Part shown: piece by piece, positions 159 through 14,865 of the stretch
How positions within the stretch are numbered: position 1 is the first letter of the stretch
Layout of the letters: each line of letters begins with the position of its first letter
IMG/VR virus record: IMGVR_UViG_3300021185_003284
Location: 1 to 64,000 of that record
Reading direction: 5' to 3' (one strand)
Source: a virus
DNA length: 64,000 nt
Made by a program: the position numbers and the translations under genes
Notes under the pieces: model-generated
Told to the model about the DNA's origin: nothing
Databases searched by the model: none
What the model saw: only the letters and a program-made list of their open reading frames with translations

Positions 159-980
159 ATGGCAAAAAATGTTGTTGTTAGTCTAAGCGGAGGGATGGAC
201 TCCTCTACATTATTACTCAGATGTTTAAAAGAGTATGATCAAGTAACTGCTATATCGTTTGATTACGGTCAAAAGCATAGAGTAGAGCTTGAAAGAGCAC
301 AATCATTAGTAGATTATATTAATGAAACTTGTCCTTCAGATAATGAATGTTTTGGAGGTTGCAAGATTAACTATCAAGTTATTAAGTTAGACGGTTTAGT
401 AAATCTGTTAAATTCTAACCTTGTAGAAGGAGGAGAAGATGTACCGGAAGGTCATTACGAAGAAGATAACATGAAAGCTACTGTAGTACCTAATCGTAAT
501 AAAATTTTCGCTTCATTAGTTCAAGCTGTAGCTTTATCTGCTGCAAATGCGAATGGAAATGATACTGATATTGCTTTAGGAATACATGCAGGTGATCATG
601 CTATTTATCCAGACTGTAGACAAGAGTTTAGAGATGCAGACGATAATGCCTTTAGATTAGGTAACTGGGAAGCAGATAAGGTAGGGTATTTTACTCCTTA
701 CTTAGATACAGATAAATTAGGAATTTTACAAGATGGACAATTACTTATAGATGCATTGGAACTGGATTTTGTACAAGTATACAAGAGAACAAACACGTCT
801 TACAAACCTTACCCGTCCGGTAACTCAGACTACAAGTCTGCATCATCGGTGGAAAGAATTGAAGCGTTTATTGAGTTGGGTGTTGATGATCCCGTTCAGT
901 ATGAAGACGAAACTGGACCTGTGGATTACGCAATTGCGAAAGCACATGTTAAAAAATTATTAGCAGAGCATGAGCAATAA
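159..980 (+). CDS. queC: 7-cyano-7-deazaguanine (preQ0) synthase QueC
   Basis: QueC is an ATP-dependent amidotransferase-like enzyme that converts 7-carboxy-7-deazaguanine plus ammonia to preQ0. The N-terminus carries the PP-loop ATP-binding motif SGGMDSS at about residues 10-16, and FDYGQKH follows at about 34-40. The middle has the family signature VVPNRNKIFASL, and there is a Cys near residue 158 in YPDCRQEF. The length of 273 residues is slightly above the usual 220-250. The gene is separated from the other pathway genes (queD/queE at 7.9-9.1 kb, folE at 9.9 kb, queF at 14 kb) by fibre and protease genes. In phages this pathway serves DNA modification. Family assignment is firm; the DNA-modification role is inferred from the DpdA homologue downstream. 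Confidence 0.95.
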   Translation: MAKNVVVSLSGGMDSSTLLLRCLKEYDQVTAISFDYGQKHRVELERAQSLVDYINETCPSDNECFGGCKINYQVIKLDGLVNLLNSNLVEGGEDVPEGHYEEDNMKATVVPNRNKIFASLVQAVALSAANANGNDTDIALGIHAGDHAIYPDCRQEFRDADDNAFRLGNWEADKVGYFTPYLDTDKLGILQDGQLLIDALELDFVQVYKRTNTSYKPYPSGNSDYKSASSVERIEAFIELGVDDPVQYEDETGPVDYAIAKAHVKKLLAEHEQ

Positions 981-1116
981 CGATAACACAAGTACAGGAA
1001 ACCCACATACTAATAGTACTCGAAATGATTTTAATAGAAGAATTGAAAAGTATAAGATGTTGGGAGCGACAAAGAGAGTAGAGTGGGAGAACAGAAGAAG
1101 AAACCGCTCTATATAG
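970..1116 (+). CDS. small basic hypothetical protein
   Basis: This 48-residue frame starts with an ATG inside the last codons of queC, an 11-base overlap typical of translational coupling, and ends seven bases before the tRNA. The N-terminal half is Asn/Thr-rich and the C-terminal half is strongly basic (RRIEKYK, ENRRRNR). No family is recognised. The overlap and the absence of other coding content support it as a real gene, but it is short. Confidence 0.45.
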   Translation: MSNNDNTSTGNPHTNSTRNDFNRRIEKYKMLGATKRVEWENRRRNRSI

Positions 1117-1122
1117 TAGGTA

Positions 1123-1196
1123 GGGGGATTAGCTCAGCTGGCTAGAGCGCCTGCCTTGCACGCAGGAGGTCATCGGTTCGACTCCGATATTCTCCA
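1123..1196 (+). tRNA. tRNA-Ala (TGC anticodon)
   Basis: A full cloverleaf can be drawn. The acceptor pairs 1123-1129 with 1189-1195 (two G-T wobbles), with discriminator A1196. The D arm is GCTC/GAGC with AGCTGGCTA. The anticodon stem is CCTGC/GCAGG with loop CTTGCAC, giving anticodon TGC at 1157-1159. The T arm is ATCGG/CCGAT with loop TTCGACT. No CCA is encoded (the next bases are CAA), so the 3' end must be added by the host. An open frame that starts inside the tRNA is an artefact. Confidence 0.95.
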
Positions 1197-1212
1197 CAAA
1201 CACTTCAGTAAT

Positions 1213-1887
1213 ATGAAATCAACGGCACATTTTTTCGGAGATAGTTTTACATGTGGTCACACTTTGTATAAAACCTCTAGTATTTGGCCTAGATTAATTG
1301 CTAAAGGATTAGATTTAAAGTATAAAAATTATGCTCAAGGAGGAGCAAGTCCACAGTTTATAATTAATCAAGTTATTAAAGCATTGCCGAATATTAAAGA
1401 AGGTGATAAAGTATTTTTACTAGAAACTGTACCGGATAGAATAGAGGTCTATAATGAATATAAGGATGAAATTGTTTCTGTTACGAATGGTAAATTAGTA
1501 GATGCACTTGAATTTGGAGTTCCTTTTGACAAAAATTATTTTAATAATCAAGATGAAATAAAAAGTATATTTAACTTTATATACGACCATAGATATAAGA
1601 AACTAAATCCTTTTGGTAAGTACTTTTCTAGTATATTCTCTGATTTCGGTATATTTTTTAAATCAATAAAAGTAGAATACATACATTTACCGTATAAGCT
1701 CTCTTTTGCTAATATTCAAAAAGGCGAAATGTTTGAAACTTCAAGAGTAGCATCTAATGGTAGTACTGCTGATGATCATTTTAGTATAAAAGGACATTGG
1801 CAATTTGCCAAATTTATCTCAAAGAATTACTTTAACAGTAGTATAAAACTCCCAGAGGAACCTAAAAGAGGATACAACATAATATGA
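1213..1887 (+). CDS. SGNH-type hydrolase/esterase-like protein
   Basis: This 224-residue protein looks like a GDSL/SGNH hydrolase. The block GDSF with the likely nucleophile Ser lies at about residues 9-12, an NYAQGGAS block resembling the Gly/Asn oxyanion blocks follows, and DDHFSIKGHWQFA near the C-terminus matches the Asp-x-x-His block. I chose the ATG at 1213 because the longer frame begins inside the tRNA. Family members acylate or deacylate glycans and other substrates. The gene overlaps the carbamoyltransferase by four bases, so the two may modify the same surface sugar. The substrate is unknown. Confidence 0.7.
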   Translation: MKSTAHFFGDSFTCGHTLYKTSSIWPRLIAKGLDLKYKNYAQGGASPQFIINQVIKALPNIKEGDKVFLLETVPDRIEVYNEYKDEIVSVTNGKLVDALEFGVPFDKNYFNNQDEIKSIFNFIYDHRYKKLNPFGKYFSSIFSDFGIFFKSIKVEYIHLPYKLSFANIQKGEMFETSRVASNGSTADDHFSIKGHWQFAKFISKNYFNSSIKLPEEPKRGYNII

Positions 1888-3551
1888 TACAGTTAGGAAT
1901 ATCTGCTTTTTACCATGACTCAGCTGCTTGTTTAGTAGTAGACGGTAAAGTTATTGCAGCAGCAGAAGAAGAAAGATTTACCGGAATTAAGCATGACAGT
2001 TCATTTCCTTTTAATGCTATTAATTGGTGTTTAAGGTATACTAGAACAACTCTTAAAGCAGTAGATCAAGTCTGTTGGTATGAAAATCCTGAATTAAAAA
2101 AAGATAGAGTACTTACTACTTTTAATAAACATTTCTTTAAAACGTTATTGTTAAGGTATAGATATTTAAGAGATTATAAAAAATATAATCCTGAAACTAT
2201 TTTAAGAAGAGGTGGGTTTAAAGGTGAAATAGTATACACCGACCATCATACTTCTCATGCAGCTTTTAGCCTACATACAAGTCCCTATGAAAATCCTGCA
2301 ATACTAACAGTCGACGGAGTAGGTGAATGGGATACCACAGCAGTATATAGAAGTAGAAACGGCAAAGTACAGAAAATGCAATCTATTAAATATCCTAATT
2401 CTTTAGGATTAGTATACTCTACTATTACTGCGTATTTAGGGTTTAAACCTAATGAAGGAGAATATAAAATTATGGGATTAGCACCATACGGTAATCCAGA
2501 TGTATATTTAGGTAAGTTAATGAGTTTAGTAGAAAATACATCTAATCAGTTTAGATTAAATACTAAACCATTCTCTTGGGAATACTCTGATAAAGTAATG
2601 TTTAATAAAAACTTATTTAAGGCACTTGGCATACTTCCTAGATTTCCAGAAGAACCAGTTACTCAGGAACACAAAGATTTAGCAGCAGCTTTACAGAAAT
2701 GGTATGAATATCAATTTACTAAATTGCTGATAACTGCAAAAAATATGTCGAAGTCACCTAATTTATGTTTAGGAGGAGGATGTGCCTATAATGGAGTAGC
2801 AAATGCTTTAGCTTATAAATATTTTGACTCAGTACATATCCCTTTTTCTCCATCAGATGCAGGATCAGCTATAGGTGCATGTTTACACCACTATAAAGGA
2901 GAACGTAAGGATAATAGTAATCCGTATTTAGGACCAGACTATAAAGATATCGAAATACACAAGGCTATTAATGACTTTCAAGAAAAATGGCCTGATTTTA
3001 TAACTTCGTTTAGACTGTCTGATGATTTAATAGTTAAAAAAACTGCTGAGTTGCTTTCTAAACAGAAAATAGTAGCATGGTTTCAAGGTAGGATGGAATT
3101 TGGAGCAAGAGCATTAGGTAATAGGTCTATATTAGCAGCTCCTCAAGATCCTAAGATGAGAGAAAAATTAAATTATGTTATAAAGAAAAGAGAAGGGTTT
3201 AGACCTTTTGCTCCTTCTGTAAAAGCTGATGAAGCAAGTAAATATTTTGATCTAAAAGAAGAAGTTCCATATATGAACATAGTAGTTCAAGCTAAGACTA
3301 AAAGGATACCTTCAGCTGTTCATATTGACAATTCAGCAAGGGTACATACAGTAACACCAGAACAAAACGAACGTTACTATTTATTATTAGATGAAATTAA
3401 GAGGTTAACTGGATCTCCTATACTACTTAATACTTCGTTTAATTTAAAAGATCAAACTATAACAATGTCCCCAGAACAAGCTATATCAAGATTTATGAAA
3501 TCTAATATAGATTTTTTAGTTATCAATAATCATCTTATACAGAAATTATGA
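1884..3551 (+). CDS. carbamoyltransferase, NodU/TobZ family
   Basis: At 555 residues this is a full-length member of the family that transfers a carbamoyl group from carbamoyl phosphate, via carbamoyl-adenylate, to a hydroxyl on a sugar or other small molecule. The N-terminal Kae1-like domain shows LGISAFYHDSAAC, AAAEEERF and the metal-binding TDHHTSHAA. LTVDGVGEW and the LGGGCAYNG block follow, and the C-terminal domain has ARALGNRSILA and KKREGFRPFAPS. It overlaps the SGNH hydrolase start-to-stop. NodU-family members are known in phages; the acceptor could be a cell-surface glycan or a modified nucleotide. The sequence does not say which. Confidence 0.92.
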   Translation: MIQLGISAFYHDSAACLVVDGKVIAAAEEERFTGIKHDSSFPFNAINWCLRYTRTTLKAVDQVCWYENPELKKDRVLTTFNKHFFKTLLLRYRYLRDYKKYNPETILRRGGFKGEIVYTDHHTSHAAFSLHTSPYENPAILTVDGVGEWDTTAVYRSRNGKVQKMQSIKYPNSLGLVYSTITAYLGFKPNEGEYKIMGLAPYGNPDVYLGKLMSLVENTSNQFRLNTKPFSWEYSDKVMFNKNLFKALGILPRFPEEPVTQEHKDLAAALQKWYEYQFTKLLITAKNMSKSPNLCLGGGCAYNGVANALAYKYFDSVHIPFSPSDAGSAIGACLHHYKGERKDNSNPYLGPDYKDIEIHKAINDFQEKWPDFITSFRLSDDLIVKKTAELLSKQKIVAWFQGRMEFGARALGNRSILAAPQDPKMREKLNYVIKKREGFRPFAPSVKADEASKYFDLKEEVPYMNIVVQAKTKRIPSAVHIDNSARVHTVTPEQNERYYLLLDEIKRLTGSPILLNTSFNLKDQTITMSPEQAISRFMKSNIDFLVINNHLIQKL

Positions 3552-3661
3552 CAGACAAAGAAAAAAAAGAGAAGATTTTAAAAGAAAAGAAAGAAAAAGA
3601 ATTTCAAGAGAGGTTAAAGGAACTTAAAAAGAGAGACCCTTTTGTTTATAAGAATTTCTAG
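3548..3661 (+). CDS. very small lysine/glutamate-rich protein
   Basis: A 37-residue frame starts within the stop codon of the carbamoyltransferase (ATGA overlap). It is almost entirely Lys and Glu until a final RDPFVYKNF. It would form a charged helix. No family is recognised. The ATGA junction favours translation; length keeps confidence moderate. Confidence 0.45.
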   Translation: MTDKEKKEKILKEKKEKEFQERLKELKKRDPFVYKNF

Positions 3662-3662
3662 T

Positions 3663-3676
3663 ACTATTTATAAATA
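3663..3676 (+). promoter_or_regulatory. CTATTTATA late-type promoter candidate for the fibre gene
   Basis: ACTATTTATAAATA lies eleven bases before the ATG of the fibre gene and just after the upstream stop. It contains TATAAATA, the T4 late promoter core, and the CTATTTATA word seen before several other late-type genes in this window. Confidence 0.45.
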
Positions 3677-3686
3677 AACATAATTC

Positions 3687-5270
3687 ATGGCTACTTTAAC
3701 AGGAAATACAATAAAAGACACTTACTATAAGTTAGTGCAAGTTGACGATGGTCAATTAGTGCAGAATGGAATAGGTTCTCCACTCACAGGGTCAATAAAA
3801 CTTAGCGGTAGTTTGCATGTTACCGGTAGTCAAACAGTTGGAGGTGATTTAACAGTTACCGGTGATGTAAAAGCAAGAGCATTTATTACAGAATTAACTC
3901 AATCTACCGTATTATATAAGTCTGGTTCTACAGCTTTCGGGGATGATGCAACAGACACACATAGCTTTTCAGGATCAGTAACAATGCATAATTCTTTAGC
4001 ATTAGGAAACTATGCTAACGTATCAGCTTCATTAGATGCTGCAGAAGATGCTATTATTGCTAACTCACAATCAGCACATATTCATAGAGTAGCTTTAGAC
4101 ACAATATTAAGTGCTTCAGTAGATGCACATTTAGATGCCAATATTAGTGCTTTATCAGCTTCAACTGATAGTCATTTAGATTCTGAAATATCATTACTTT
4201 CAGCTTCAGCAGATACTCACTTAGACGCAAACATAACTGCTTTAAGTAGTTCAGCTCATTCTCAAAGAGTATCTGAAGATATAGTATTATCTGGTTCTGC
4301 ACACATACAGAGAGAAGCAATTAAAGGATTAGCATCAAGTGCTAATACAGCATTATCTACTTCTGCAGATGTAAGAAGAAACGAATTAAGTGGTTCAAGC
4401 GCAAGTGCTTTAAGAGCTGAATATATAGCAGCAGATAGTGCGTTAAGTGCATCACAAAACACCTACATTAATGCTAAAGTAGCAGCATTAGTAGATAGCT
4501 CACCAGGAACTTTAGATACGTTAAATGAATTAGCAGCAGCTTTAGGAGATGATGCAACATTTTCAGCTTCTATAGCAACTACTATAGGTACTAAATTACC
4601 TACAGCAACACATACAGCATTTTCATCTTCTAATGCATCAGCATTAAGAACAGAATTTTTAGCTGGTGACACTTCTTTGAGTTCTTCATTAAATACTAGA
4701 ATTGTTACTTTAGAAAGTGCAGAAACAACTGCTACAATATCAGCTTCAGCTCATACACAAAGAACAGCAATCTCAGGAGCATTAGATACAGCAATAGACA
4801 GTGTGATTTCATCAAACGTTTCTCATTCAGGAGGAATAGTAGACTTACCAGGTAAAAAGATACAATTTTCTAATGTTTATGCTACAGAAGGAGATCTACC
4901 AACTGCAGCTGACTACCATGGAATGTTCGCACATGTACATGCTACTGGATTAGGGTATTTTGCTCACGGAGGTAATTGGATAAAATTAGCTAATTCTGGT
5001 TCTGAAGCATCTGCAATAAGAACAGAATATATAGCAGCAGATAGTGCGTTAAGTAGTTCAGCAGCAACTGCATTAAGAAGTGAATATGTAGCAGGAGATA
5101 CAGCCTTATCTAGCTCAGCTCATACACAAAGAACAGCATTAAGTGCGAGCTCAGCAACAGTAATTCAAACATCAGCAAGTATTGCATCAGACTATATTAG
5201 TATAGAAAAGCTTAAAACATTTATTACAGGTTCATACGCAGAATTTCAAGCAGCTATAGGATCACTATAA
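3687..5270 (+). CDS. repetitive coiled-coil tail fibre / virion surface protein
   Basis: This 527-residue protein has no signal peptide. An N-terminal beta-rich part (GSIKLSGSLHVTGSQT, GGDLTVTGDV) resembles repeated strands of phage fibres. From about residue 110 it becomes a long Ala/Ser-rich region of degenerate repeats such as SASVDAHLDANISAL, ALRAEYIAADSALS and SAHTQRTALS, with heptad spacing expected for trimeric coiled coils. A small globular insert occurs near residues 380-430 (GKKIQFSNVYATEG). The subtilisin-like protease follows eleven bases downstream and may process it. Host-binding fibre is the best guess; the exact position on the virion is unknown. Confidence 0.7.
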   Translation: MATLTGNTIKDTYYKLVQVDDGQLVQNGIGSPLTGSIKLSGSLHVTGSQTVGGDLTVTGDVKARAFITELTQSTVLYKSGSTAFGDDATDTHSFSGSVTMHNSLALGNYANVSASLDAAEDAIIANSQSAHIHRVALDTILSASVDAHLDANISALSASTDSHLDSEISLLSASADTHLDANITALSSSAHSQRVSEDIVLSGSAHIQREAIKGLASSANTALSTSADVRRNELSGSSASALRAEYIAADSALSASQNTYINAKVAALVDSSPGTLDTLNELAAALGDDATFSASIATTIGTKLPTATHTAFSSSNASALRTEFLAGDTSLSSSLNTRIVTLESAETTATISASAHTQRTAISGALDTAIDSVISSNVSHSGGIVDLPGKKIQFSNVYATEGDLPTAADYHGMFAHVHATGLGYFAHGGNWIKLANSGSEASAIRTEYIAADSALSSSAATALRSEYVAGDTALSSSAHTQRTALSASSATVIQTSASIASDYISIEKLKTFITGSYAEFQAAIGSL

Positions 5271-5281
5271 AATAAATTTAT

Positions 5282-6889
5282 ATGCCAGAATTTAATGAGA
5301 GAGAATATAATATTATCCTTCATAAAGAAGTAGACTATGATTTATTTTGGGAAGATCTAAAAGAAATTACAGAAAAAGATAATGTACCTAATAGGCAAGT
5401 GGAAATAGCCAATCCGAGATTAGGTAGTTATCGCCAAACACACTACTGGTTGACAGAAGCTGAAAAAGATGACCTCTTAGAACATCCTAGTGTTTTAGAT
5501 ATTGAAATACCACCTGAACAGAGAAATGATATAGTAAAAGAACACGGAGCTATAATTAGCGGATCGTATAATAGAAGCCCTTCATTATCTTCAGGAGATA
5601 AAAACTGGGGACTATTAAGATGCAATACTAAAGATAATACCTATAACGGTAATGAAATTATAGATGAAACTTATAATTATACTTTAGATGGAAAAGGAGT
5701 AGACGTAGTTATTGTTGATTCCGGAGTACAAACTGATCATCCAGAATGGGAAGATCAGCATGGAGTATCCAGGTATACATTTATAGATTGGGGTTCTATT
5801 CATACAGGATTTACTCAAAATGCTAACCATGAAAGAGATAATGATGGTCACGGTACTCATTGTGCAGGTATAGCAGCAGGAAAAACCTTTGGATGGGCTA
5901 AGAATGCAAAAATATACTCCTTAAAAATAAGAGGTTTAGAAGGCTCTGGTGACGGTGCTACTGGAATAGATGATAGTTATGCATTAGATGCAATTAAATT
6001 ATTCCACAGACAAAAGGCTATTGACCCTGCTACCGGGTATAAAAGACCGACAGTAGTCAATATGTCTTGGGGGTATTCTGCAAAATTTACAGGAGGCTCT
6101 ACAGCATACGCAGTAAATTATAGAGGAACGTCATATAGTTCTACCGTCATACAAAACTCCTTTGGAGGAGAACTTAAAGCGTTTGGGCTAAACGAATTTG
6201 CGCCTAGTATAGGTTTGTTAGGCACATGGAAACACCCAGTAAGAATAACTTCTGTAGATACCGATATTGAAGAAATGGTAGAAGAAGGCATCCACGTAAT
6301 AATTGCTTCAGGAAATAGTAATCATAAGATAGATGTACCTTCAGGAGCTGATTATAATAATCAAGCATTGATTAAAAATACTCAATGGAGATATTATTCT
6401 AGAGGTTCATCACCTTATTCTGATAAAGCTTTTATGGTTGGATGTATTGATGAAGATCAAGTACAATCTGGAAGTAACTACATAGATAAAAGAGCTTCTT
6501 TTTCAAATCACGGACCTGGAGTAAACATTTATGCACCCGGTTCACGTATACTTTCATCAGTAAGTAATACCTCAGGATACGCAAGAGGTTCTTATACTCA
6601 TAACGGTGCGTATTGGGAATCTATATTAAATGGTACATCAATGGCAGCTCCACAAGTATGCGGTGTAGTAGCTCTATATGCACAGTCATCCCCAGGATTA
6701 ACACCAGCTAAAATGCAAGAAGTAGTCTTTGCAAATGCTAGTGAAGTAATTTATAATCCTACAGAACATTTATCCGGTAGTTACTCACTACAGGCTGATT
6801 CAGTTAAAATGTTACATAATAAGTACGGTCAAAATTCACCATTAACATTCTCTGGGAGTTTTACTGCTACTACAAACTTAGACTTTTAA
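5282..6889 (+). CDS. subtilisin-like serine protease (S8 family)
   Basis: A 535-residue subtilase with an intact catalytic triad: Asp146 in VIVDSGV, His190 in DGHGTHCAG and Ser453 in LNGTSMAAP. The oxyanion Asn lies in IIASGNS. The first about 120 residues (EREYNIILHKEVDYDLFWED onward) resemble a propeptide-like alpha/beta domain rather than a signal peptide. The C-terminal tail after about residue 480 contains SGSYS and SGSFTAT motifs like those of the upstream fibre, suggesting a virion location. It stands between the fibre and a glycosyltransferase, with a one-base overlap to the latter. Maturation of the fibre or digestion of host surface proteins are both possible. Confidence 0.92.
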   Translation: MPEFNEREYNIILHKEVDYDLFWEDLKEITEKDNVPNRQVEIANPRLGSYRQTHYWLTEAEKDDLLEHPSVLDIEIPPEQRNDIVKEHGAIISGSYNRSPSLSSGDKNWGLLRCNTKDNTYNGNEIIDETYNYTLDGKGVDVVIVDSGVQTDHPEWEDQHGVSRYTFIDWGSIHTGFTQNANHERDNDGHGTHCAGIAAGKTFGWAKNAKIYSLKIRGLEGSGDGATGIDDSYALDAIKLFHRQKAIDPATGYKRPTVVNMSWGYSAKFTGGSTAYAVNYRGTSYSSTVIQNSFGGELKAFGLNEFAPSIGLLGTWKHPVRITSVDTDIEEMVEEGIHVIIASGNSNHKIDVPSGADYNNQALIKNTQWRYYSRGSSPYSDKAFMVGCIDEDQVQSGSNYIDKRASFSNHGPGVNIYAPGSRILSSVSNTSGYARGSYTHNGAYWESILNGTSMAAPQVCGVVALYAQSSPGLTPAKMQEVVFANASEVIYNPTEHLSGSYSLQADSVKMLHNKYGQNSPLTFSGSFTATTNLDF

Positions 6890-7521: not shown

Positions 7522-7550
7522 TTGGAAATTAGAAATAACTTTCTTATATT
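7520..7550 (+). promoter_or_regulatory. class 1 promoter AGTTG-N16-TTCTTATATT
   Basis: AGTTG at 7520-7524 and TTCTTATATT at 7541-7550 are separated by exactly 16 bases. It lies 50 bases before the first gene of the queD-queE-ferredoxin run. The layout matches the Bacteroidota pattern TTG...TAnnTT. Confidence 0.65.
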
Positions 7551-7599
7551 ATAGTATAATTAGACGACAGTGTCACAGCACCACTTAAAAAACACGAAA

Positions 7600-7872
7600 A
7601 TGATGGACTTAAAGGAAGTCGAGAATGATCTCTATGATGTAGAGTCTCGCAGAATGACGGAAGAGCAATACTTAGCGAACCGTATACATCAAAACAAAAT
7701 TACATCTGATGAATCGATTAACTACCCTGATGCAAAGAAGCACCAGATTGTATCGTTTATTAAATCCGGTATTAGAATACTAGGATACTGTTTTATACCA
7801 TTTAATTTGGTAACCTCAGCTATTCTTCTTATATTATCTGAAATAGTAGGTATAATAGAAGAATTAGTATAA
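7600..7872 (+). CDS. small membrane-anchored protein
   Basis: This 90-residue protein has an acidic, hydrophilic N-terminal half (DLKEVENDLYDVESRRM) and two closely spaced hydrophobic stretches at the C-terminus (IRILGYCFIPFNLVTSAILL and beyond). ATG 7600 is preferred over the GTG at 7570, which lies too close to the promoter. It is the first gene of the queD transcript. No family is recognised. Confidence 0.6.
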   Translation: MMDLKEVENDLYDVESRRMTEEQYLANRIHQNKITSDESINYPDAKKHQIVSFIKSGIRILGYCFIPFNLVTSAILLILSEIVGIIEELV

Positions 7873-7882
7873 AAAATAAGTT

Positions 7883-8350
7883 ATGGCAAAATATCAATCA
7901 ACAAAAGTATTCGATGGATTTAGTACCGTCTTTCGTCAATGGAAAGCCGAAACAACTCACTGTAGATTTCTTCACGGTTATGGAGTATCATTTAAACTCT
8001 GGTTTGAAGGAGAATTAGATAATCGTAATTGGGTCTGGGACTTTGGAGGAATGAAAAGAGCTAAAACCTTAATTGACGGAAAATCACCTAAAGCATGGAT
8101 GGATTATATGTTTGATCATACATACTTGATAGCAGAAGACGATCCATTTTTACCTGAAGCATTAAAGCTAGATGAGAAGGGTATAGCACAGGTTAGAGTA
8201 GTACCTGCTACAGGAGCAGAGAAGTTCTCACAATATATATACGAAAAGCTAGCTCCGTTCATAGAGACGGAAACTGAAGGTAGAGTAAAAGTTATAAAAG
8301 TAGAATTTAGAGAACACGGTAAAAACTCAGCACTATATGTCCCTAGGTAG
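7883..8350 (+). CDS. queD: 6-carboxy-5,6,7,8-tetrahydropterin synthase QueD
   Basis: QueD turns dihydroneopterin triphosphate, made by FolE, into 6-carboxytetrahydropterin. The 155-residue protein shows the PTPS-fold elements: CRFLHGYG with zinc His and catalytic Cys, VWDFGGMK, the DHTYLI block with a zinc-site His, PATGAEKFSQYIYEKL and a C-terminal VEFREHGKNSA containing the substrate-anchoring Glu. The first zinc His sits in ETTHC at about residue 26. It overlaps queE by 14 bases. Assignment is secure at family level. Confidence 0.92.
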   Translation: MAKYQSTKVFDGFSTVFRQWKAETTHCRFLHGYGVSFKLWFEGELDNRNWVWDFGGMKRAKTLIDGKSPKAWMDYMFDHTYLIAEDDPFLPEALKLDEKGIAQVRVVPATGAEKFSQYIYEKLAPFIETETEGRVKVIKVEFREHGKNSALYVPR

Positions 8351-9116
8351 AATAGAAGATTATGATAAAAACTTACCGATTGTAGAAATATATACTGCAG
8401 TCCAATCAGAAGGCTCAAGAGCAGGATACCCAACGGTAGTAATTAGGACTACAGGATGTACTCACAGATGTTATTTTGGTGAAGGCGGTTGGTGTGATTC
8501 TTGGTATACAAGTATTCATCCAGAAAAAGGTCAATATTCGTTTAACGATATTATAGAAATGTACGATAAGAATCCTCAAATATCAGAAATGATGTTAACT
8601 GGAGGTTCACCTACTATGCATAAAAAACTTGTAAACGAATTAACACACTTTGCTAATGAAAGAAATATCTTTATTACTATCGAGACTGAAGGAAGCCATT
8701 TTCTACCCACTGATTATCCTATTAATTTGCTTTCTATTAGTCCTAAGTTCTCCAATAGTGTTCCTGTACTGGGAGTATCTACGCCTCAAGGAGCGACTAC
8801 AGACGAAAGAATGATTAAACAACATAATAAATTTAGATTAAAATACGATACTATAAAACAGAGTATGGACTATCATTCTGATTACCATATTAAACCTGTT
8901 TGGGACGGTAAAGATAATAATGCTCTAAATGAAATTATGGAATGTATTGAAACACTAAATGCTCCAAAAGATAAAGTATGGTTTATGCCTGCTGGAGATA
9001 GTAGAGAAGCTTTATATAAATCTTACCCTATATTATTTGATTGGGTTAGAGATAATGGTTATAGAATGACCTGGAGACCTCATATTATTGCATTTGAAGA
9101 TCAAAGAGAAGTCTAA
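8337..9116 (+). CDS. queE: 7-carboxy-7-deazaguanine synthase QueE (radical SAM)
   Basis: QueE rearranges 6-carboxytetrahydropterin to 7-carboxy-7-deazaguanine using a 4Fe-4S cluster and SAM. The N-terminus has the family substrate motif YTAVQSEGSRAGYPTVVIRTTG. The cluster cysteines are Cys41, Cys45 and Cys53, that is C-x3-C-x7-C, whereas most QueE proteins have C-x3-C-x2-C; the insert is YFGEGGW. LTGGSPTMH and TIETEGS match the SAM-binding GGEP-like and following strands. At 259 residues it is somewhat longer than usual. The ferredoxin gene starts on its stop codon, suggesting a dedicated electron donor. Confidence 0.93.
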   Translation: MSLGRIEDYDKNLPIVEIYTAVQSEGSRAGYPTVVIRTTGCTHRCYFGEGGWCDSWYTSIHPEKGQYSFNDIIEMYDKNPQISEMMLTGGSPTMHKKLVNELTHFANERNIFITIETEGSHFLPTDYPINLLSISPKFSNSVPVLGVSTPQGATTDERMIKQHNKFRLKYDTIKQSMDYHSDYHIKPVWDGKDNNALNEIMECIETLNAPKDKVWFMPAGDSREALYKSYPILFDWVRDNGYRMTWRPHIIAFEDQREV

Positions 9117-9430
9117 TGAGTTATATAATTGGACATCCTTGCGTTAGTACCTGTGATACAGCTTGTGTAGCAGTTTGCCCAGTAGATTGTATACATGGTC
9201 CTATTAAAGTAGATGGAGCAGGAGCTGAAGTAGCAGATATGAGTAAAGAAGAGCTAGTTAATAAAATGCTCTATATTAATCCTGAAGAATGTATCGACTG
9301 TGGTGCTTGTCTTCCGGAATGTCCAGTAGATGCAATCTACGAAGATGAAGAAACAGCCATAGAAAAAGATGGCACAGATAAATATGTTAAATTAAATTAT
9401 GAATTTTTTGGAGAAAAGTGGAACGGATAA
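9116..9430 (+). CDS. two-cluster bacterial-type ferredoxin
   Basis: A 104-residue 7Fe/8Fe ferredoxin. The first half has CDTACVAVCPVDCI and the second has CIDCGACLPECPVDAI, the classic C-x2-C-x2-C-x3-CP cluster ligands; an extra N-terminal Cys lies in HPCVSTC. The C-terminal extension is acidic. It starts one base inside the queE stop (TAATG junction), so it is co-translated with a radical-SAM enzyme that needs low-potential electrons. A ferredoxin-NADP reductase gene occurs at 58.4 kb. The partnership with QueE is an inference from position. Confidence 0.92.
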   Translation: MSYIIGHPCVSTCDTACVAVCPVDCIHGPIKVDGAGAEVADMSKEELVNKMLYINPEECIDCGACLPECPVDAIYEDEETAIEKDGTDKYVKLNYEFFGEKWNG

Positions 9431-9484
9431 CTCAGTTATCGCAACAATAGAATTACCAGATAATTACTGGACAACAAATCATAC

Positions 9485-9883
9485 ATGGGAGTAGAGAAAG
9501 TATATTTAACTTGGGACGATATAAATGTACTTTTAGATAAGTTACATGAACAAGTAGGAGGGAAAGCTAGATTAGTAACAGGTATTCCAAGAGGAGGAGC
9601 AATAATAGCTATCTTATATTCTCATAGATTTGGAGTTGAGTATTTTAACAACATTAGTAATCATTATCCTCACTTATTAGTTATTGATGATATAGCTGAC
9701 ACAGGAAAAACATTTAAAAAGTATTATGATGAATGTCCAAAACCTATGTATGCATCTCTACACTATAAAAAACAATCAGTATTTAAACCTAATTACTATG
9801 TTGAAGAAGTAGGACCTGAATGGATTGTATACCCATGGGAAAATGAAAACGCAAAATCCATCCAAGATTATTTGGATAATTAA
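9485..9883 (+). CDS. type I phosphoribosyltransferase
   Basis: A 132-residue PRTase with the PRPP-binding loop LLVIDDIADTGKTF and an upstream TGIPRGGAI that fits the pyrophosphate loop. The size and the aromatic YPWE near the end resemble xanthine/hypoxanthine-guanine phosphoribosyltransferases. It could salvage the guanine released from DNA when a DpdA-type transglycosylase swaps the base. That role is an inference; the substrate cannot be read from the sequence. Confidence 0.82.
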   Translation: MGVEKVYLTWDDINVLLDKLHEQVGGKARLVTGIPRGGAIIAILYSHRFGVEYFNNISNHYPHLLVIDDIADTGKTFKKYYDECPKPMYASLHYKKQSVFKPNYYVEEVGPEWIVYPWENENAKSIQDYLDN

Positions 9884-9900
9884 AAATAAATTACTATATT
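9870..9900 (+). promoter_or_regulatory. class 1 promoter variant before folE
   Basis: ATTTG at 9870-9874, 16 bases, then TTACTATATT at 9891-9900. The spacing equals that of the other class 1 sites and TTG is kept, although the outer bases differ. FolE starts 47 bases downstream. Confidence 0.5.
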
Positions 9901-9947
9901 GTATTAACAATGAGTCGTAGAACCTCAATAAAAACAGAAGTTATATT

Positions 9948-10661
9948 ATGCCTAAAAAGTTTATAGAAGGAACAGAATTAGTTCGAGCCGGTTTTGCTAA
10001 CGGAATATCAAGTCAATTAGCAAAGAAACAGGAGAAAGAAGGACCTGAAGCAAGGTTAAATGCTGAAGAGAAGCAAGTTATTATAGATAATGCAGCAAAA
10101 GCATATGCAGATTTTCTAACTGCCTTAGGATGTGATTATGCTGATGATCCTAACTCTTCAGATACTCCAATGAGAGTAGCAAAAGCATACGTTAACGATT
10201 TATGGGCTGGAAGATATGCTCCACTAGATCGTATTACAGCATTTCCATCTGACGGTTATGACGGTATTGTACAGGAAAGTAATATACCTGTAACGTCTAT
10301 GTGCTCTCATCACCATCAAGCTATTAGAGGTACAGTAAGTATTGCTTATATAGCATCAGAAGATGGTAAGGTAGTAGGACTATCTAAATTAAATAGAATA
10401 GTAGAGCAATTCGGCAGAAGAGGAGCTATTCAAGAACAGCTAACTGTAGCTATACATAATGCTGTAGATAAGATATGTGAAGGTAATTTAGGAGTAGCAG
10501 TTCAAGTAAATGCAACTCATGCATGTGTATCATGTAGAGGAGTTAAGCATGGAGGAGCTTCTATGCAAACAGCTAAATTAACTGGAGCATTTCTAAATGA
10601 AGACTCAGCTAAAGCAGAGTTTTATAAAAATATAGAATTAGCAAGTATATGCAAGCATTAG
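9948..10661 (+). CDS. folE: GTP cyclohydrolase I
   Basis: FolE opens the GTP ring to form dihydroneopterin triphosphate, the first step to both folate and 7-deazaguanines. The 237-residue protein shows SDTPMRVAKAYV, then SMCSHHHQAI with the zinc Cys and His, GLSKLNRIVEQFGRR and a C-terminal HACVSCRGVKH carrying the second zinc Cys. The N-terminal about 50 residues are an extension. It is followed by a cupin gene that overlaps by 13 bases. With queD, queE, queC and queF in the window, a role in deazaguanine synthesis is well supported. Confidence 0.95.
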   Translation: MPKKFIEGTELVRAGFANGISSQLAKKQEKEGPEARLNAEEKQVIIDNAAKAYADFLTALGCDYADDPNSSDTPMRVAKAYVNDLWAGRYAPLDRITAFPSDGYDGIVQESNIPVTSMCSHHHQAIRGTVSIAYIASEDGKVVGLSKLNRIVEQFGRRGAIQEQLTVAIHNAVDKICEGNLGVAVQVNATHACVSCRGVKHGGASMQTAKLTGAFLNEDSAKAEFYKNIELASICKH

Positions 10662-10996
10662 AACACGATGAAAGACCTTGGGGTTGTTATGATGTATTAT
10701 TAGATACTGATACAACTAAGGTTAAAATTATAACTGTAAAACCAGGCGGTAGATTATCTTATCAATACCATCATAAAAGATCAGAAGTTTGGGCTTGTGT
10801 AAAAGGTAAATTATCAGTTATTTTAGATGATGTTTTACATGAGTTATATCCTGGGGATTCAATAGTTATTCCTCAAGGAGCTAAACACAGAGCATTTAAC
10901 GATACTATGGAAGTATCACAATTTATAGAAACACAAACAGGAAGCTATTTCGGAGAAGACGATATAGTAAGATTAGAAGACGATTATGAAAGATAA
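10649..10996 (+). CDS. single-domain cupin, mannose-6-phosphate isomerase type
   Basis: A 115-residue cupin resembling the C-terminal domain of ManC/type II phosphomannose isomerase: RPWGCYDVL, KIITVKPGGRLSYQYHHKRSEVWACVKG and PGDSIVIPQGAKHRAFN. The metal-binding pattern H-H...E and the later H are present. It overlaps folE and the MazG-like gene at its two ends. It could act in sugar-nucleotide supply for the glycosylation locus; position alone links it to nucleotide metabolism. Confidence 0.8.
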   Translation: MQALEHDERPWGCYDVLLDTDTTKVKIITVKPGGRLSYQYHHKRSEVWACVKGKLSVILDDVLHELYPGDSIVIPQGAKHRAFNDTMEVSQFIETQTGSYFGEDDIVRLEDDYER

Positions 10997-11531
10997 CCAA
11001 TTAACATTATTCTCAGATAATGAGATGAAAGACATGGAACCGCTACCAGTATGGACTAACGGAGTTCCTTTTGTAGATGAAGTAGAAACATTTAATAATA
11101 CATTCGGAAAAACTAATAACTATGAACCAGTCATCCCAGAATACAAAGAGTGGAAATTTGTCTATGATTTTATCCTCGAAGAACTCGAAGAATATAGAGA
11201 AGCTTGCGAAAGAGGGGACATTGTGGAAGTTTTGGACGCTTTGTGCGACATTACTTATGTTTCCCTTGGGAACGGTACTATGCTACATGGCCTTAAAGAT
11301 AAGATATGGCCAGCATATCAAGAAGTACAAGCTTCTAATATGTCAAAAGCTTGCAAAACTGAAGAAGAGGCCATACAGAGTGTCAGCCAAAGAGCTAAGG
11401 AGCAAGGTGAGGCCTGTCATTTTGAGAAGGTTGCGGAAGGACGGTACGTTGTCTACAGAACAAGAGATAGAAAAGTATTGAAAAGCCTTAGTTATTTTAG
11501 ACCCGACCTTAAACAATTTTTTAATGATTAA
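10986..11531 (+). CDS. MazG-like / PRA-PH-type nucleotide pyrophosphohydrolase
   Basis: A 181-residue protein whose central helices carry EELEEYREACERGD and EVLDALCDITYVSLG, the E-E-x-x-E ... E-x-x-D pattern of all-alpha NTP pyrophosphatases. The C-terminal 70 residues are a basic extension. Phage MazG-like enzymes hydrolyse nucleotides or alarmones and are often found next to nucleotide-modification genes. The start overlaps the cupin by 11 bases. Confidence 0.75.
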   Translation: MKDNQLTLFSDNEMKDMEPLPVWTNGVPFVDEVETFNNTFGKTNNYEPVIPEYKEWKFVYDFILEELEEYREACERGDIVEVLDALCDITYVSLGNGTMLHGLKDKIWPAYQEVQASNMSKACKTEEEAIQSVSQRAKEQGEACHFEKVAEGRYVVYRTRDRKVLKSLSYFRPDLKQFFND

Positions 11532-11706
11532 CTTAGACGAACATAAAAAAGAAGTAGAAGGTACTTTATATGTACCTTACGATATAGCAGTGAAAGCTCT
11601 AGCAGAGGCTTATGCAAGTAATAAGTCACTTGAACAGGTAGTAGATACAATAAAAAAATCTACTATGGATTTAAATAACGCATTTAAAGATTTAGATATT
11701 GATTAA
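11524..11706 (+). CDS. small hypothetical protein
   Basis: A 60-residue, charged, probably all-helical protein (AVKALAEAYASNKSLEQVVD). It overlaps the MazG-like gene by eight bases and the dpdA-like gene by eight bases, so it is translationally linked to both. No family is recognised. Confidence 0.55.
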   Translation: MINLDEHKKEVEGTLYVPYDIAVKALAEAYASNKSLEQVVDTIKKSTMDLNNAFKDLDID

Positions 11707-12526
11707 GATAGCACACGAATCACCAAAGAGTATTTTTAGTACTGTACAGAAATTTACAGACTACGATTATGCTTTAGTACATTTATTTGAAGAAGACGAA
11801 GAGTACCTTCAACACTTTAAAGATGCATTAGCAAACGGTAGAGAAGTAATTTTAGATAATTCTATATTTGAATTAGAAGAAGCATTCGATGCTGATAGAT
11901 TTGCATACTGGATAAAAGAACTAAAACCCACTTGGTATATAGTTCCAGATGCTTTAGAGCAATGTTTTAAGACTTGTGATCAAGCTCATAAGTTTTTTGA
12001 AAAGTATCCTAAAGATAGTCTACCGGGAAAAGCAATTGGAGTAGTACAAGGTAAAACATATGAATCAATAGCTAGCTGTTACGACTATATGGATAAAGTA
12101 GCTCCTGTAGATATGATTGCTATATCTTTTGATTATTCGTATTATGAAGAGGTTTGTCCGCATCCTAACAAGTACGTTAGTTGGATGCTAGGACGTGCAA
12201 AGCTACTTGGAGATTTAGTTAAAAACGATGTTATTAATAAAGATAAGCCTCATCATTTATTAGGATGTGGTTTACCTCAAGAGTTTATGTTATATAGAGA
12301 ATCTAACTATGATTGGATATACTCTTTAGATACATCTAATCCTGTAGTACATGGAATAAAAGAAATAATCTATAAAGATCAAGGACTATGGGATAAAGAA
12401 TCTCAGAAGTTATTTGAATTAATTAACTATGAAGTTAATGAAGATCAATTAACATATATTAAAAGTAATATTCAAAAATTTAGATGGTTTACAAATGGAC
12501 AGCAAAATGTGGATAACGTTCTTTAG
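11699..12526 (+). CDS. dpdA: DpdA-like DNA 7-deazaguanine transglycosylase
   Basis: A 275-residue protein that I read as a TGT-fold (TIM-barrel) transglycosylase of the phage DpdA type, which exchanges guanine in DNA for a 7-deazaguanine base. Four blocks line up with tRNA-guanine transglycosylase logic: LDNSIFE with Asp53 (general acid region), GVVQG at about 114-118, LLGCGLPQE at about 187-194 (counterpart of the GGLAVGE loop) and SLDTSNPVVHG with Asp211, the likely nucleophile. It lacks the zinc-binding C-terminus of TGT. The start is a TTG overlapping the previous stop. It is surrounded by preQ1 pathway genes. The fold call is pattern-based and needs a structure or profile comparison. Confidence 0.78.
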   Translation: MIKIAHESPKSIFSTVQKFTDYDYALVHLFEEDEEYLQHFKDALANGREVILDNSIFELEEAFDADRFAYWIKELKPTWYIVPDALEQCFKTCDQAHKFFEKYPKDSLPGKAIGVVQGKTYESIASCYDYMDKVAPVDMIAISFDYSYYEEVCPHPNKYVSWMLGRAKLLGDLVKNDVINKDKPHHLLGCGLPQEFMLYRESNYDWIYSLDTSNPVVHGIKEIIYKDQGLWDKESQKLFELINYEVNEDQLTYIKSNIQKFRWFTNGQQNVDNVL

Positions 12527-13043
12527 CCAAACTGGTAAAGAAATAGCAGACATAGCGGAATCAATAGGTCGATGGCCTGATAGAATTTATACTAACGATA
12601 GACCGGAAGATCTTCGAACTGTAGATCCTAGAATTGTAGAAAAAGGATTCTATACATTACCTAATAAACCTACGTTAGAGGATTATGAAGAGTTTTTAGT
12701 TTATTTTCCGGAAGCTACAATAACATTACATGGTTGGTTAAGAATTATGCCTCCTGAAATTTGTGATAAGTTTAATATATACAATGGACATCCAGGTTTG
12801 ATTACTAGGTACCCTGAATTAAAAGGTAAAGATCCTCAACTTAAAGCATATCTAGCAAAACATGAAGTAATGGGAGCAGTAATACATAAAGTTACTGCAG
12901 GAGTAGATGAAGGAAGAGTCTTAAAGGAAATATTCTTTAACTCTTGGGGTATTACAGAAACGGAGATGTGGGAAACTATGAGGGATAGATCGTTATATTT
13001 GTGGTTAGAATTTTTAAAAGAATTATTAGGAAATACGAAGTAA
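12495..13043 (+). CDS. dpdN: formyltransferase, DpdN-like (dPreQ1 formylation candidate)
   Basis: A 182-residue one-domain formyltransferase related to GART/methionyl-tRNA formyltransferase. The catalytic triad Asn97, His99 (YNGHPG) and Asp138 (AGVDEGR) is intact, and LHGWLRIMPPEICDKF and YPELKGKDPQ match the family. It overlaps the dpdA-like gene by 32 bases. In phage 7-deazaguanine systems a formyltransferase called DpdN is proposed to make 7-(formylamino)methyl-7-deazaguanine from dPreQ1. The adjacency here, plus queF, makes that role likely; a purine-synthesis role is the alternative. ATG 12507 is another possible start. Confidence 0.75.
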   Translation: MDSKMWITFFSQTGKEIADIAESIGRWPDRIYTNDRPEDLRTVDPRIVEKGFYTLPNKPTLEDYEEFLVYFPEATITLHGWLRIMPPEICDKFNIYNGHPGLITRYPELKGKDPQLKAYLAKHEVMGAVIHKVTAGVDEGRVLKEIFFNSWGITETEMWETMRDRSLYLWLEFLKELLGNTK

Positions 13044-13055
13044 ATTTCTTATCTT
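13025..13055 (+). promoter_or_regulatory. weak class 1-like promoter
   Basis: TTCTTATCTT at 13046-13055 matches the downstream element, but the expected AGTTG position holds TATTA. It lies in the 32-base gap before the next gene. Low-confidence member of the class. Confidence 0.3.
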
Positions 13056-13075
13056 TATATAAATAAAAAGGTTTT

Positions 13076-13597
13076 ATGATTAAAAGAATAGCATTAGTAG
13101 GAGCTAGTAGTACAGGTAAGACTACTGTTTATGAACTACTTAAAAATAAATTACCTAAGTATGAATTCGTAAATGAGTCTACTAGAACTGTAAGTAGTTA
13201 CGAATTTCCTATTAATGAGAAAGGAACAGAAGCTACTCAGTTAGCTATTAGCTGTTTTCACTTAGAGGCTTTATTGCAACCTTATAATCAAGTTCTCGAT
13301 AGATGTTTTATGGATGTTGTAGTATATACAAGATTTATGGATAATGTTGGAGGAGGAACAATCAAGTATATTAATGATACTTGGAATAGAATAAAGCATG
13401 AATATACTCATTATATTTATTTTCCTATAGAATTTGATTCTGTAGATGATGGAGTTAGAAGTGTAAATGAAAAGTGGAGAACAGATATTGATGAAGAGTT
13501 TAAAGCAGTATTAGAAGGTGTACGTCAGCCTTACTTGACGATAACTGGTTCCCCTATGCAAAGGGTAGAACAAATATTAAAATTTATAAATGTTTAG
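13076..13597 (+). CDS. NadR-like P-loop kinase
   Basis: A 173-residue P-loop protein with GASSTGKTT at about residues 9-17, followed by NESTRTV and a DRCFMDVVVYTRF block. This order resembles the ribosylnicotinamide-kinase half of NadR and the AAA_28 group. It may phosphorylate nicotinamide riboside or another nucleoside. The nuclease gene overlaps its end by eight bases. An NMN-adenylyltransferase-like gene lies at 45.4 kb. Confidence 0.7.
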   Translation: MIKRIALVGASSTGKTTVYELLKNKLPKYEFVNESTRTVSSYEFPINEKGTEATQLAISCFHLEALLQPYNQVLDRCFMDVVVYTRFMDNVGGGTIKYINDTWNRIKHEYTHYIYFPIEFDSVDDGVRSVNEKWRTDIDEEFKAVLEGVRQPYLTITGSPMQRVEQILKFINV

Positions 13598-13955
13598 ATA
13601 CGGAGCAAAATTACTAAGAGTAGTAGATGGTGACACAGCAGATGTTATGATCGATTTAGGATTTAGTACCTGGGTAAAAGCTAGGTTAAGATTTAAAGGT
13701 GTTGACACCTGGGAAAAGAGAACAAGAAACCTAGAGGAAAAAGCTAAAGGTTTACTTGCTTCGGAATTTACGAAAAAATACCTAGAGATGAATGATGGTA
13801 AGTTTGAAATACAATCTTACGGTAAAGGTAAGTACGGTAGAGTACTTGCAGAAATATTCATAGATGGAGAAGAAAAATCTCTTAATGATTTATTAATAGA
13901 AAACGGTCACGCTTATGTTTATGAGGGTGGTAAAAAACAATTATTTAAAGGTTAA
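13590..13955 (+). CDS. thermonuclease-like (SNase) nuclease
   Basis: A 121-residue staphylococcal-nuclease fold. VVDGDTADVMIDLGF starts the barrel, RLRFKGVDTWEKR carries the catalytic Arg and Glu, and GKYGRVLAEIF carries the second Arg. There is no signal peptide, so it acts inside the host or in the virion. It may degrade host DNA while modified phage DNA is spared, which is speculation from the context. It ends one base before the queF start. Confidence 0.88.
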   Translation: MFRYGAKLLRVVDGDTADVMIDLGFSTWVKARLRFKGVDTWEKRTRNLEEKAKGLLASEFTKKYLEMNDGKFEIQSYGKGKYGRVLAEIFIDGEEKSLNDLLIENGHAYVYEGGKKQLFKG

Positions 13956-13956
13956 T

Positions 13957-14865
13957 ATGGCAGAAGTTAAAAATTATCAAGAAGTTGTAGATATTGCATC
14001 TAAACATTTAGGAACTGTAGGAGGTGCTGGGTACAAAGATACCTATGCTCCTGAGCTACTAGTAAAAATACCAAGATACTTAAATAGAGAAGGTTACGGA
14101 TTAACATCTGATAGCTTTGTAGGAGTAGATACATGGAATTGTTACGAAGTATCAGCAATTACTACTAAAGGTCAACCAGTAGCAGGAATGCTAAAAATCG
14201 TTTGCCCTAGTAATAGTGAATTTCACGTAGAATCTAAGTCAATTAAATTATATTTGAATTCATTTAATATGACCAGAATAGGAGATAATGCAGCTGATTG
14301 TATTAGTGGTATTGAAGCAAGAGTTAAGAGAGATCTAGATGAATTATTAGAGACTACAACAACTGTTACTTTCTATGCTTCAGATCTAGAAACTGAACCT
14401 TTATCTTTTCAAGAGTATACAGATTTAGGAGAAATAGCTAACTTAGATGCTATAGACTTTACAGCTTTCCAATCAGATGAAAGTCAGCTTGATATTGAAG
14501 AGCATAGCGATACTACTACTGTTAGATTTAGTTCTAACTTATTAAGGTCTAATTGTAGAGTGACTAACCAACCAGATTGGGGTGATGTATTTATTAAGAT
14601 TATAGGTAAAAACGTACCAACAGCAGAATCAATAGCTAAATATATTGTTAGTCATAGAACAGTTAGTCATTTTCACGAGGAAATATGTGAAATGGTATTT
14701 AAGCATTTATCTGATGCTTGTAAACCAGAACAGTTAATGGTTGCTTGTTTATATACTCGTAGAGGAGGATTAGATATTAATCCTATTAGAGCTACTCATC
14801 AATCATTAATTCCAGAATTTTTTACTAACCCAGAATATACTATTAGGAAGACTTTAAGACAGTAA
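13957..14865 (+). CDS. queF: NADPH-dependent preQ0 reductase QueF (long type)
   Basis: QueF reduces the nitrile of preQ0 to the aminomethyl group of preQ1. The 302-residue size fits the two-lobed Escherichia coli type. The signature ESKSIKLYLNSFN lies at about residues 92-104, the catalytic Cys200 in RSNCRVTNQPDWGD, and the C-terminal lobe has SHFHEEICEMVF and TRRGGLDINPIR. ATG 13957 fits better than the upstream in-frame start inside the nuclease gene. Its presence predicts that the DNA base inserted is preQ1-derived rather than preQ0. Confidence 0.93.
   Translation: MAEVKNYQEVVDIASKHLGTVGGAGYKDTYAPELLVKIPRYLNREGYGLTSDSFVGVDTWNCYEVSAITTKGQPVAGMLKIVCPSNSEFHVESKSIKLYLNSFNMTRIGDNAADCISGIEARVKRDLDELLETTTTVTFYASDLETEPLSFQEYTDLGEIANLDAIDFTAFQSDESQLDIEEHSDTTTVRFSSNLLRSNCRVTNQPDWGDVFIKIIGKNVPTAESIAKYIVSHRTVSHFHEEICEMVFKHLSDACKPEQLMVACLYTRRGGLDINPIRATHQSLIPEFFTNPEYTIRKTLRQ

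Follow-up and report, generated by a model that had tools for sequence, protein, structure and literature searches.

Described 7-deazaguanine systems and the locus in the window

One study reports dPreQ1 in the DNA of phages that carry QueF-type genes, dADG in the DNA of Campylobacter phages, and an insertion that depends on DpdA (PMC6884629). We analyzed a viral locus with genes for such a system in a stretch of 64,000 bases (hereafter, the window), which is the first part of the 113,071-base virus record IMGVR_UViG_3300021185_003284. The window encodes proteins of the FolE, QueD, QueE, QueC and QueF families, a DpdA-like transglycosylase and a formyltransferase, and the original prediction for it held that the phage encodes all the steps from GTP to a formylated dPreQ1. 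A preQ1 pathway together with DpdA and a formyltransferase was reportedly proposed by Cui et al. 2023 to give fdPreQ1, and that work is said to be the source of the names DpdN and DpdA3. Relative to their scheme, the system in the window is known from sequence alone.

Among isolates, Flavobacterium phage vB_FspM_immuto_2-6A (Immutovirus) has nearly the gene order of the window: QueD, QueE, phosphoribosyltransferase (PRT), FolE, NTP pyrophosphohydrolase, DpdA, formyltransferase, kinase and QueF, with QueC apart. Its genome is annotated with a DNA guanine transglycosylase and a phosphoribosylglycinamide formyltransferase, and the two proteins are, respectively, 72% (DpdA) and 51% (formyltransferase) identical to those of the window. 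Unlike the window, the 41 kb covered of this phage showed by tblastn no ferredoxin-like gene and no MTS methyltransferase. This kind of system is therefore already known from an isolate; the association with a PRT and the proposed exchange of formyl for acetyl described below would go beyond it.

The DpdA proteins of the Campylobacter Firehammervirus phages CP220, CP21, CPt10 and IBB_35 are about 42-44% identical to that of the window over 94-95% of its length. We take the Campylobacter phages with dADG to be these Firehammerviruses, in whose DNA all dG is reportedly replaced by dADG. Like the window protein, the DpdA relative of CP220 belongs to PHROG 19058, and its gene is directly followed by an AAA_28 gene (gp057). 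Through these relatives (42-44% identity, PHROG 19058) the window DpdA may tentatively be assigned to DpdA3. CP220 also has a PRT gene, elsewhere in its genome. Its record has no QueF and its 16.8-kb DpdA locus no formyltransferase; such a phage, with a related DpdA, counts in favor of the reading proposed below. A more distant system is that of Cellulophaga phage phiST, the best named match of the window DpdA among viral model structures (TM 0.85/0.90, 19% identity; entry M4SLA5, 259 aa, probably gp042), which the DpdA profile also finds at 6e-15. In phiST (L229:10049-11327, gp041-gp042) an AAA-type ATPase gene directly precedes the DpdA-like gene, FolE and MazG-like genes also precede it, and neither QueC nor QueF was found in the record.

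A predicted route from GTP to a formylated base in DNA

The best reading of this gene set, to which we give a probability of roughly 0.8, is that GTP is converted to preQ1, that DpdA inserts the base into DNA and that its amine is formylated. The open reading frames and their Pfam and PHROG matches agree with the earlier placement of FolE, QueD, QueE, QueC and QueF. The core genes are the following:

159..980, + strand: QueC-family protein, predicted preQ0 synthase (PF06508, 1.4e-37, 129.7 bits); P-loop SGGMDS kept, four C-terminal Cys absent
7883..8350, + strand: QueD, predicted 6-carboxytetrahydropterin synthase, HGY variant (PF01242, PTPS, 2e-13; phrog_2389, 1.7e-40)
8337..9116, + strand: QueE, predicted CDG synthase, radical SAM protein with Cx3Cx7C (Pfam radical SAM, 7e-7; phrog_2076, 5e-53)
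9948..10661, + strand: FolE, predicted GTP cyclohydrolase I (PF01227, 5.3e-42)
11699..12526, + strand: DpdA, predicted TGT-type DNA guanine transglycosylase, TTG start, 275 aa (phrog_19058, 1.1e-51; model and fold searches)
12495..13043, + strand: formyltransferase, DpdN-like (PF00551, Formyl_trans_N, 4.6e-8); alternative in-frame ATG at 12507
13915..14865, + strand: QueF, predicted preQ0 reductase of the tandem QueF_N and QueF type (QueF_N, 1e-27; QueF, 7e-19; solved QueF 3bp1, E 5.5e-46)

In the proposed mechanism, FolE, QueD, QueE, QueC and QueF would make preQ1 from GTP, and the small DpdA would exchange it for guanine in replicated phage DNA, with Asp211 as nucleophile and Asp53 as acid/base. 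The formyltransferase would cap the aminomethyl group with formyl taken from 10-formyl-tetrahydrofolate, and the final base in DNA would be 7-(formylamino)methyl-7-deazaguanine. This base would most likely block host nucleases, and the kinship to Firehammervirus points to a high degree of replacement. An enzyme resembling xanthine-guanine phosphoribosyltransferase (XGPRT), perhaps with a kinase, could return the displaced guanine to the pool of GTP from which FolE draws. The catalytic roles given to DpdA and to the formyltransferase are carried over by analogy from tRNA-guanine transglycosylase (TGT) and PurN; DNA as the target, the source of the formyl group, the identity of the resulting base, the high degree of replacement and the protection from nucleases are likewise predictions. 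The earlier claim that the phage encodes every step is supported by the gene families, the TGT fold, the invariant residues and the co-occurrence of the formyltransferase with DpdA and QueF.

The DpdA protein has a TGT-type fold in structure prediction

The sequence of the window DpdA has no match among Pfam families, and PHROG 19058 is labelled "unknown function". An AlphaFold2 model built on an alignment of 40 relatives reached a pLDDT of 94.5 and a pTM of 0.91. When the model was compared with the PDB by Foldseek, the 50 matches listed were tRNA-guanine transglycosylases and 7ui4, the solved structure of the DNA preQ0 insertase DpdA (E 1.5e-6). Alignment to TGT 2pwv by VIA-align gave a Z of 17.8, with 3.3 Å over 238 residues. 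Since this confident model matches a tRNA-guanine transglycosylase, the protein is, according to the model, a TGT-type (beta/alpha)8 barrel. The original prediction would have been contradicted by any other fold at 11699-12526, and the barrel was found.

The residues point in the same direction. D53, D84, Q117 and D211 are invariant in all 40 aligned sequences, including the two aspartates that had been singled out from the window alone, and in the model D53 closes the strand 49-53 and D211 the strand 207-211. We take Asp53 to be the acid/base and Asp211 the nucleophile, corresponding to D102 and D280 of TGT. The motif CxCxxC, the zinc site of tRNA TGT, is absent from the 275-aa sequence. By this reading, DpdA would put a 7-deazaguanine base into DNA. 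The median isoelectric points of DpdA (5.2) and of the formyltransferase (5.6) gave no hint of DNA binding.

The formyltransferase is tied to DpdA and QueF

The formyltransferase was described in the original prediction as overlapping DpdA by 32 bases and carrying an Asn97/His99/Asp138 triad. Both features stand: the ATG of the formyltransferase (12495) and the stop of DpdA (12526) share 32 bases, and the triad is invariant in 34 of 34 aligned sequences. We collected 100 loci anchored on the formyltransferase, namely the best 80 of 371 profile relatives in IMG/VR and 20 loci reached through a distant relative. Together with loci anchored on DpdA, and once 10 loci repeating a contig were taken out, they make a combined set of 118 scored loci (numbered with an L below), which includes two named phages and L003, a second record of the window's own virus. 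DpdA is present in 116 of them, and these are the DpdA loci counted from here on.

DpdA is found in 98 of the 100 formyltransferase-anchored loci, the other two being fragments that start inside the formyltransferase. QueF is found in 95, and the remaining five end at most 1.2 kb past the formyltransferase. In the combined set the formyltransferase occurs in 110 loci, of which 108 also have DpdA and 102 QueF. Clustering the formyltransferases at 90% identity leaves 55 clusters, with DpdA in every one and QueF in 51. The overlap with DpdA also recurs in relatives, measuring 32 bases in 16 and 11 bases in 15 of the 85 measurable loci (near-copies included), which fits a coupled translation of the two genes. 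With so many loci compared, the link of the formyltransferase with DpdA and QueF is much firmer than a single genome could make it. Given its family and its company, the enzyme probably formylates preQ1 or dPreQ1. The window thereby adds a virus family, with 371 candidate formyltransferase relatives in IMG/VR, that probably has formylated 7-deazaguanine DNA.

A phosphoribosyltransferase accompanies many of these systems

We consider it possible, at somewhat less than even odds, that viral 7-deazaguanine DNA systems hold two unrecognised parts: a guanine-recycling arm, made of a PRT and in some phages a kinase, and an exchangeable slot for capping the preQ1 amine. The candidate for the first part lies between QueE and FolE:

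9485..9883, + strand: XGPRT-like 6-oxopurine phosphoribosyltransferase (NCBIfam xanthine PRT, 4.9e-10, below cut-off)

In a profile search with seven relatives of this protein, solved purine PRTs were matched at 3.5e-21 and the XGPRT of E. coli at about 1e-12. The gene is present in 80 of the 116 DpdA loci. FolE closely follows it in the window and in immuto_2-6A and directly precedes it in Brevundimonas phage MaInes, and in Pseudomonas phage Quinobequin-P09 the two are fused in one frame (PRT residues 38-123, E 4e-8; FolE 127-297). The PRT was also found in CP220 and in Synechococcus phage BUCT-ZZ01.

We also took the PRT as the anchor, scanning viral contigs with a broad profile whose members were mainly PRTs of 7-deazaguanine phages and keeping the best 80 of at least 562 relatives, ranked by likeness to the PRT of phiST (L148-L227). 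A QueE-type gene lies within 10 kb in 77 of these loci, FolE in 49 and QueD in 48, and only 3 show none of QueC, QueD, QueE and FolE. The QueE call in L159 is doubtful, as it resembles another radical SAM protein, so that the QueE count is nearer 76 of 80. By cluster, QueE accompanies the PRT in 29 of 32 at 60% identity and in 5 of 7 at 40%. Two QueE queries match 259 and 56 of 50,697 phage records, a loose base rate of low sensitivity in which the overlap of the two was kept; the link between PRT and QueE is far above this rate. Since the profile that ranked the loci came mostly from 7-deazaguanine phages, lower-ranked relatives may behave otherwise. Three PRT queries against the phage collection together match 47 records. 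Of these, 43 belong to groups with QueE demonstrated in one member; of the four others, MT835497 has no QueE, the 4-kb record MT839721 shows none, and the short OR845500 and OR850930 were left out.

The records of L012, L016 and L020 contain no PRT, which is hence not obligatory; it was also not found in the DpdA loci L015, L115, L118-L120 and L122, despite at least 6 kb upstream. A TGT-type exchange frees one guanine for each base replaced. As DpdA would release guanine in this way, the simplest role for the PRT is salvage of guanine to GMP and then to GTP for FolE, and its genomic company suggests that it recycles the guanine displaced from DNA. If true, such a recycling arm would explain how a base-exchange enzyme reaches very high replacement without loss of guanine, would pull the exchange towards completion, and would offer a way to tell post-replicative exchange from incorporation of a nucleotide. 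In the literature covered, which was limited, we found no publication treating PRT, guanine, DpdA and phage 7-deazaguanine together.

Elsewhere in the window (24928-26918), genes for an adenine PRT, an MTA/SAH nucleosidase-like protein and a methionine adenosyltransferase stand in a row. This looks like a cassette for S-adenosylmethionine supply and adenine salvage, parallel to the proposed guanine salvage. A scan with this adenine PRT, meant as a control anchor, found no relative.

Loci without the formyltransferase suggest an exchangeable cap

The formyltransferase is absent from eight of the 116 DpdA loci, one of which (L011) is cut. QueF is present in four of the other seven (L018, L019, L126 and L127), and no QueF above the cut-off was found in the available records of L016, L020 and CP220. 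A gene for a GNAT acetyltransferase lies beside DpdA in four of the seven (L018, L019, L126 and L016), which amount to three lineages because L018 and L019 are near-identical. The operon of these two is that of L017, L101 and L102, except that the formyltransferase of those loci gives way to a GNAT gene immediately ahead of DpdA (L018:2999-3406). In L126 (10980-12926) and L016 (7464-9510), a GNAT and a protein with a weak likeness to Amidoligase_2 are encoded near a kinase and DpdA; the amidoligase match of L126 reaches 18.4 bits, below the 22-bit Pfam cut-off, and the homologue in L016 has no Pfam match. L127 has QueF but neither a formyltransferase nor a GNAT; this contig, however, is a fragment of 3.8 kb in which DpdA comes at the very start.

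A profile of three GNATs matched these four loci and had no match in 119 loci with both formyltransferase and DpdA (copies of the same contig included); distant GNATs could be missed, as this profile gave another GNAT-like protein, in the window, only 0.1 bits. The swapping of amine-acylating enzymes within the same operon supports the idea that the formyltransferase acts on the preQ1 amine. It also suggests, from gene content, an exchangeable amine cap in DpdA systems, either formyl or acetyl: the slot would be filled by the formyltransferase in the lineage of the window, and by a GNAT in L018/L019 and L126, with the amidoligase-like protein in addition in L126 and L016. If true, this predicts a new DNA base, 7-(acetylamino)methyl-7-deazaguanine (N-acetyl-preQ1 DNA), and indicates which phages should be examined for it.

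Weighing the proposed pathway and its alternatives

Several observations weigh against the proposed pathway. The loci come largely from one phage group and several are copies, and counts across loci are therefore not independent. One locus, L128, has DpdA and the formyltransferase with no QueF downstream or in its bin; its contig begins 762 bases ahead of DpdA, the bin is incomplete, and it is the sole case lacking QueF besides those at contig ends. The DpdA model made from the single sequence reaches a pLDDT of only 47. For QueF, PMC6884629 indicates that sequence alone is not decisive between QueF and QueF-L in phages, and the window protein scores 238.5 bits against TIGR03138, below the 293-bit cut-off. 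In alignments, the window QueC lacks all four C-terminal Cys and has Ser and other residues in their place (TNTSY...SDYKSASS), and QueD lacks the first His of its zinc site, with HGY replacing HGH.

Key residues had been described as intact throughout. This holds for FolE, where the motifs CSHH and HxC are intact, and for QueF, which has both its QueF_N and QueF domains and keeps the catalytic Cys214, Asp221 and His254/Glu255, but not for QueC and QueD, in which the classical zinc ligands are gone, nor for QueE, whose cluster motif Cx3Cx7C has a longer loop than the classical Cx3Cx2C. The missing Cys and His are presumably the zinc ligands of their families. Such changes are common in these viruses: 51 of 61 QueC sequences from the loci lack the C-terminal Cys (39 with DYKSASS and 12 others without CxxCxxC, near-copies included), and 126 of 131 QueD sequences of these viral sets have HGY. 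The C-terminal Cys of QueC are present in L020 (TCY...CGKCGSC) and in Quinobequin (SCY...CGTCGPC). Judged by their motifs, QueC, QueD and QueE are diverged rather than textbook enzymes. As the zinc Cys are replaced and the PF06508 domain remains, "QueC-family protein" is the safe name for the first of them, which would still be expected to produce preQ0.

Three other explanations, not mutually exclusive, were considered. The formyltransferase could be a phage PurN that boosts purine synthesis, the DNA then carrying unformylated dPreQ1. PurN is its closest curated family, solved PurN/GART structures are its best PDB matches, and the annotation of immuto_2-6A agrees. However, the family match has 33.8 bits, far below the 150-bit cut-off, and tblastn with the formyltransferase at 1e-5 matches only four immuto records of the phage collection. 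The near-constant presence of DpdA in the loci fetched with the formyltransferase, the recurring overlap of the two genes, and the GNAT that adjoins DpdA in most of the uncut loci without formyltransferase also argue against a role in purine synthesis, which we consider unlikely.

The modified base could instead enter DNA as a deoxynucleotide, made by the PRT and the kinase and incorporated by the polymerase, with DpdA secondary. PMC6884629 mentions a proposal of a modified-dGTP route in Campylobacter phages, and a PRT and an AAA-type kinase do accompany these systems. Yet many DpdA loci are without PRT, kinase or both, and DpdA keeps the TGT barrel with all the catalytic-type residues. The 6-oxopurine PRTs contact N7, an atom absent from 7-deazaguanine bases. 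Moreover, the large subunit of ribonucleotide reductase (PF02867) was not found in the 113-kb record, which is possibly a fragment and in which other reductase classes were not searched for. We regard this route as improbable. Finally, a role of the genes in tRNA queuosine rather than in DNA is very hard to credit: the enzymes from FolE to QueF belong to the queuosine pathway and the DpdA barrel resembles tRNA TGT, but DpdA has no CxCxxC, and its nearest named relatives are those of immuto_2-6A and of the Campylobacter phages, the latter reported with dADG in their DNA (PMC6884629).

Gene layout, accessory genes and other observations

The genes had been described as lying in five blocks rather than in one operon. 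This is literally correct, but those at 7570-15539 follow one another on a single strand, overlapping or separated by short gaps, QueC alone stands apart, and some other phages have a single compact operon: in L108-L110 and L129 the order is QueE, PRT, QueD, FolE, DpdA, formyltransferase, kinase, QueF and QueC. Besides a cupin gene, the following accessory genes are found among the pathway genes of the window:

9116..9430, + strand: ferredoxin-like 4Fe-4S protein (Fer4 families); start shares one base with the QueE stop
10986..11531, + strand: NTP pyrophosphohydrolase (PRA-PH/MazG-like), upstream of DpdA (PF01503, 1.1e-8); in 80 of 116 DpdA loci
13076..13597, + strand: AAA_28 P-loop kinase-like protein (PF13521, 6e-17)

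The ferredoxin-like gene, whose product is a possible electron donor to QueE, occurs in 19 of the 116 DpdA loci. The kinase-like gene occurs in 97, in 87 of which it lies within 300 bases of DpdA or the formyltransferase; it is not universal, being absent from the DpdA loci of the L111-L122 type. In profile searches, the AAA_28 protein matched NadR kinase, deoxyguanosine kinase and thymidylate kinase weakly, amid many chance-type P-loop matches.

Two proteins that had been put forward as possibly adding further steps do not hold up as parts of the system. The NPP methyltransferase directly after QueF (14865-15539), considered as a preQ1 N-methylase or core part, has its best curated matches among PrmC/HemK types, all below cut-offs, and is found only in the window and L005, out of 94 loci that extend 1.5 kb or more beyond QueF. 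The Nmad1-like protein (39696-40082) is not a neighbor, lying about 25 kb away, and its PF07659 match of 23.7 bits is below the 25-bit cut-off.

Among the other genes of the window, those for a subtilisin-type protease (5282-6889) and a NodU-type carbamoyltransferase (1884-3551) have weak NCBIfam matches below cut-offs. By eye, one large protein (59647-61881) has two Hint-like stretches (CFIAGTKV... and CHTYDSKV...). GroES- and GroEL-like genes, also recognized by eye, lie at 21058-23038, and in immuto_2-6A a pair of this kind follows the DNA polymerase.

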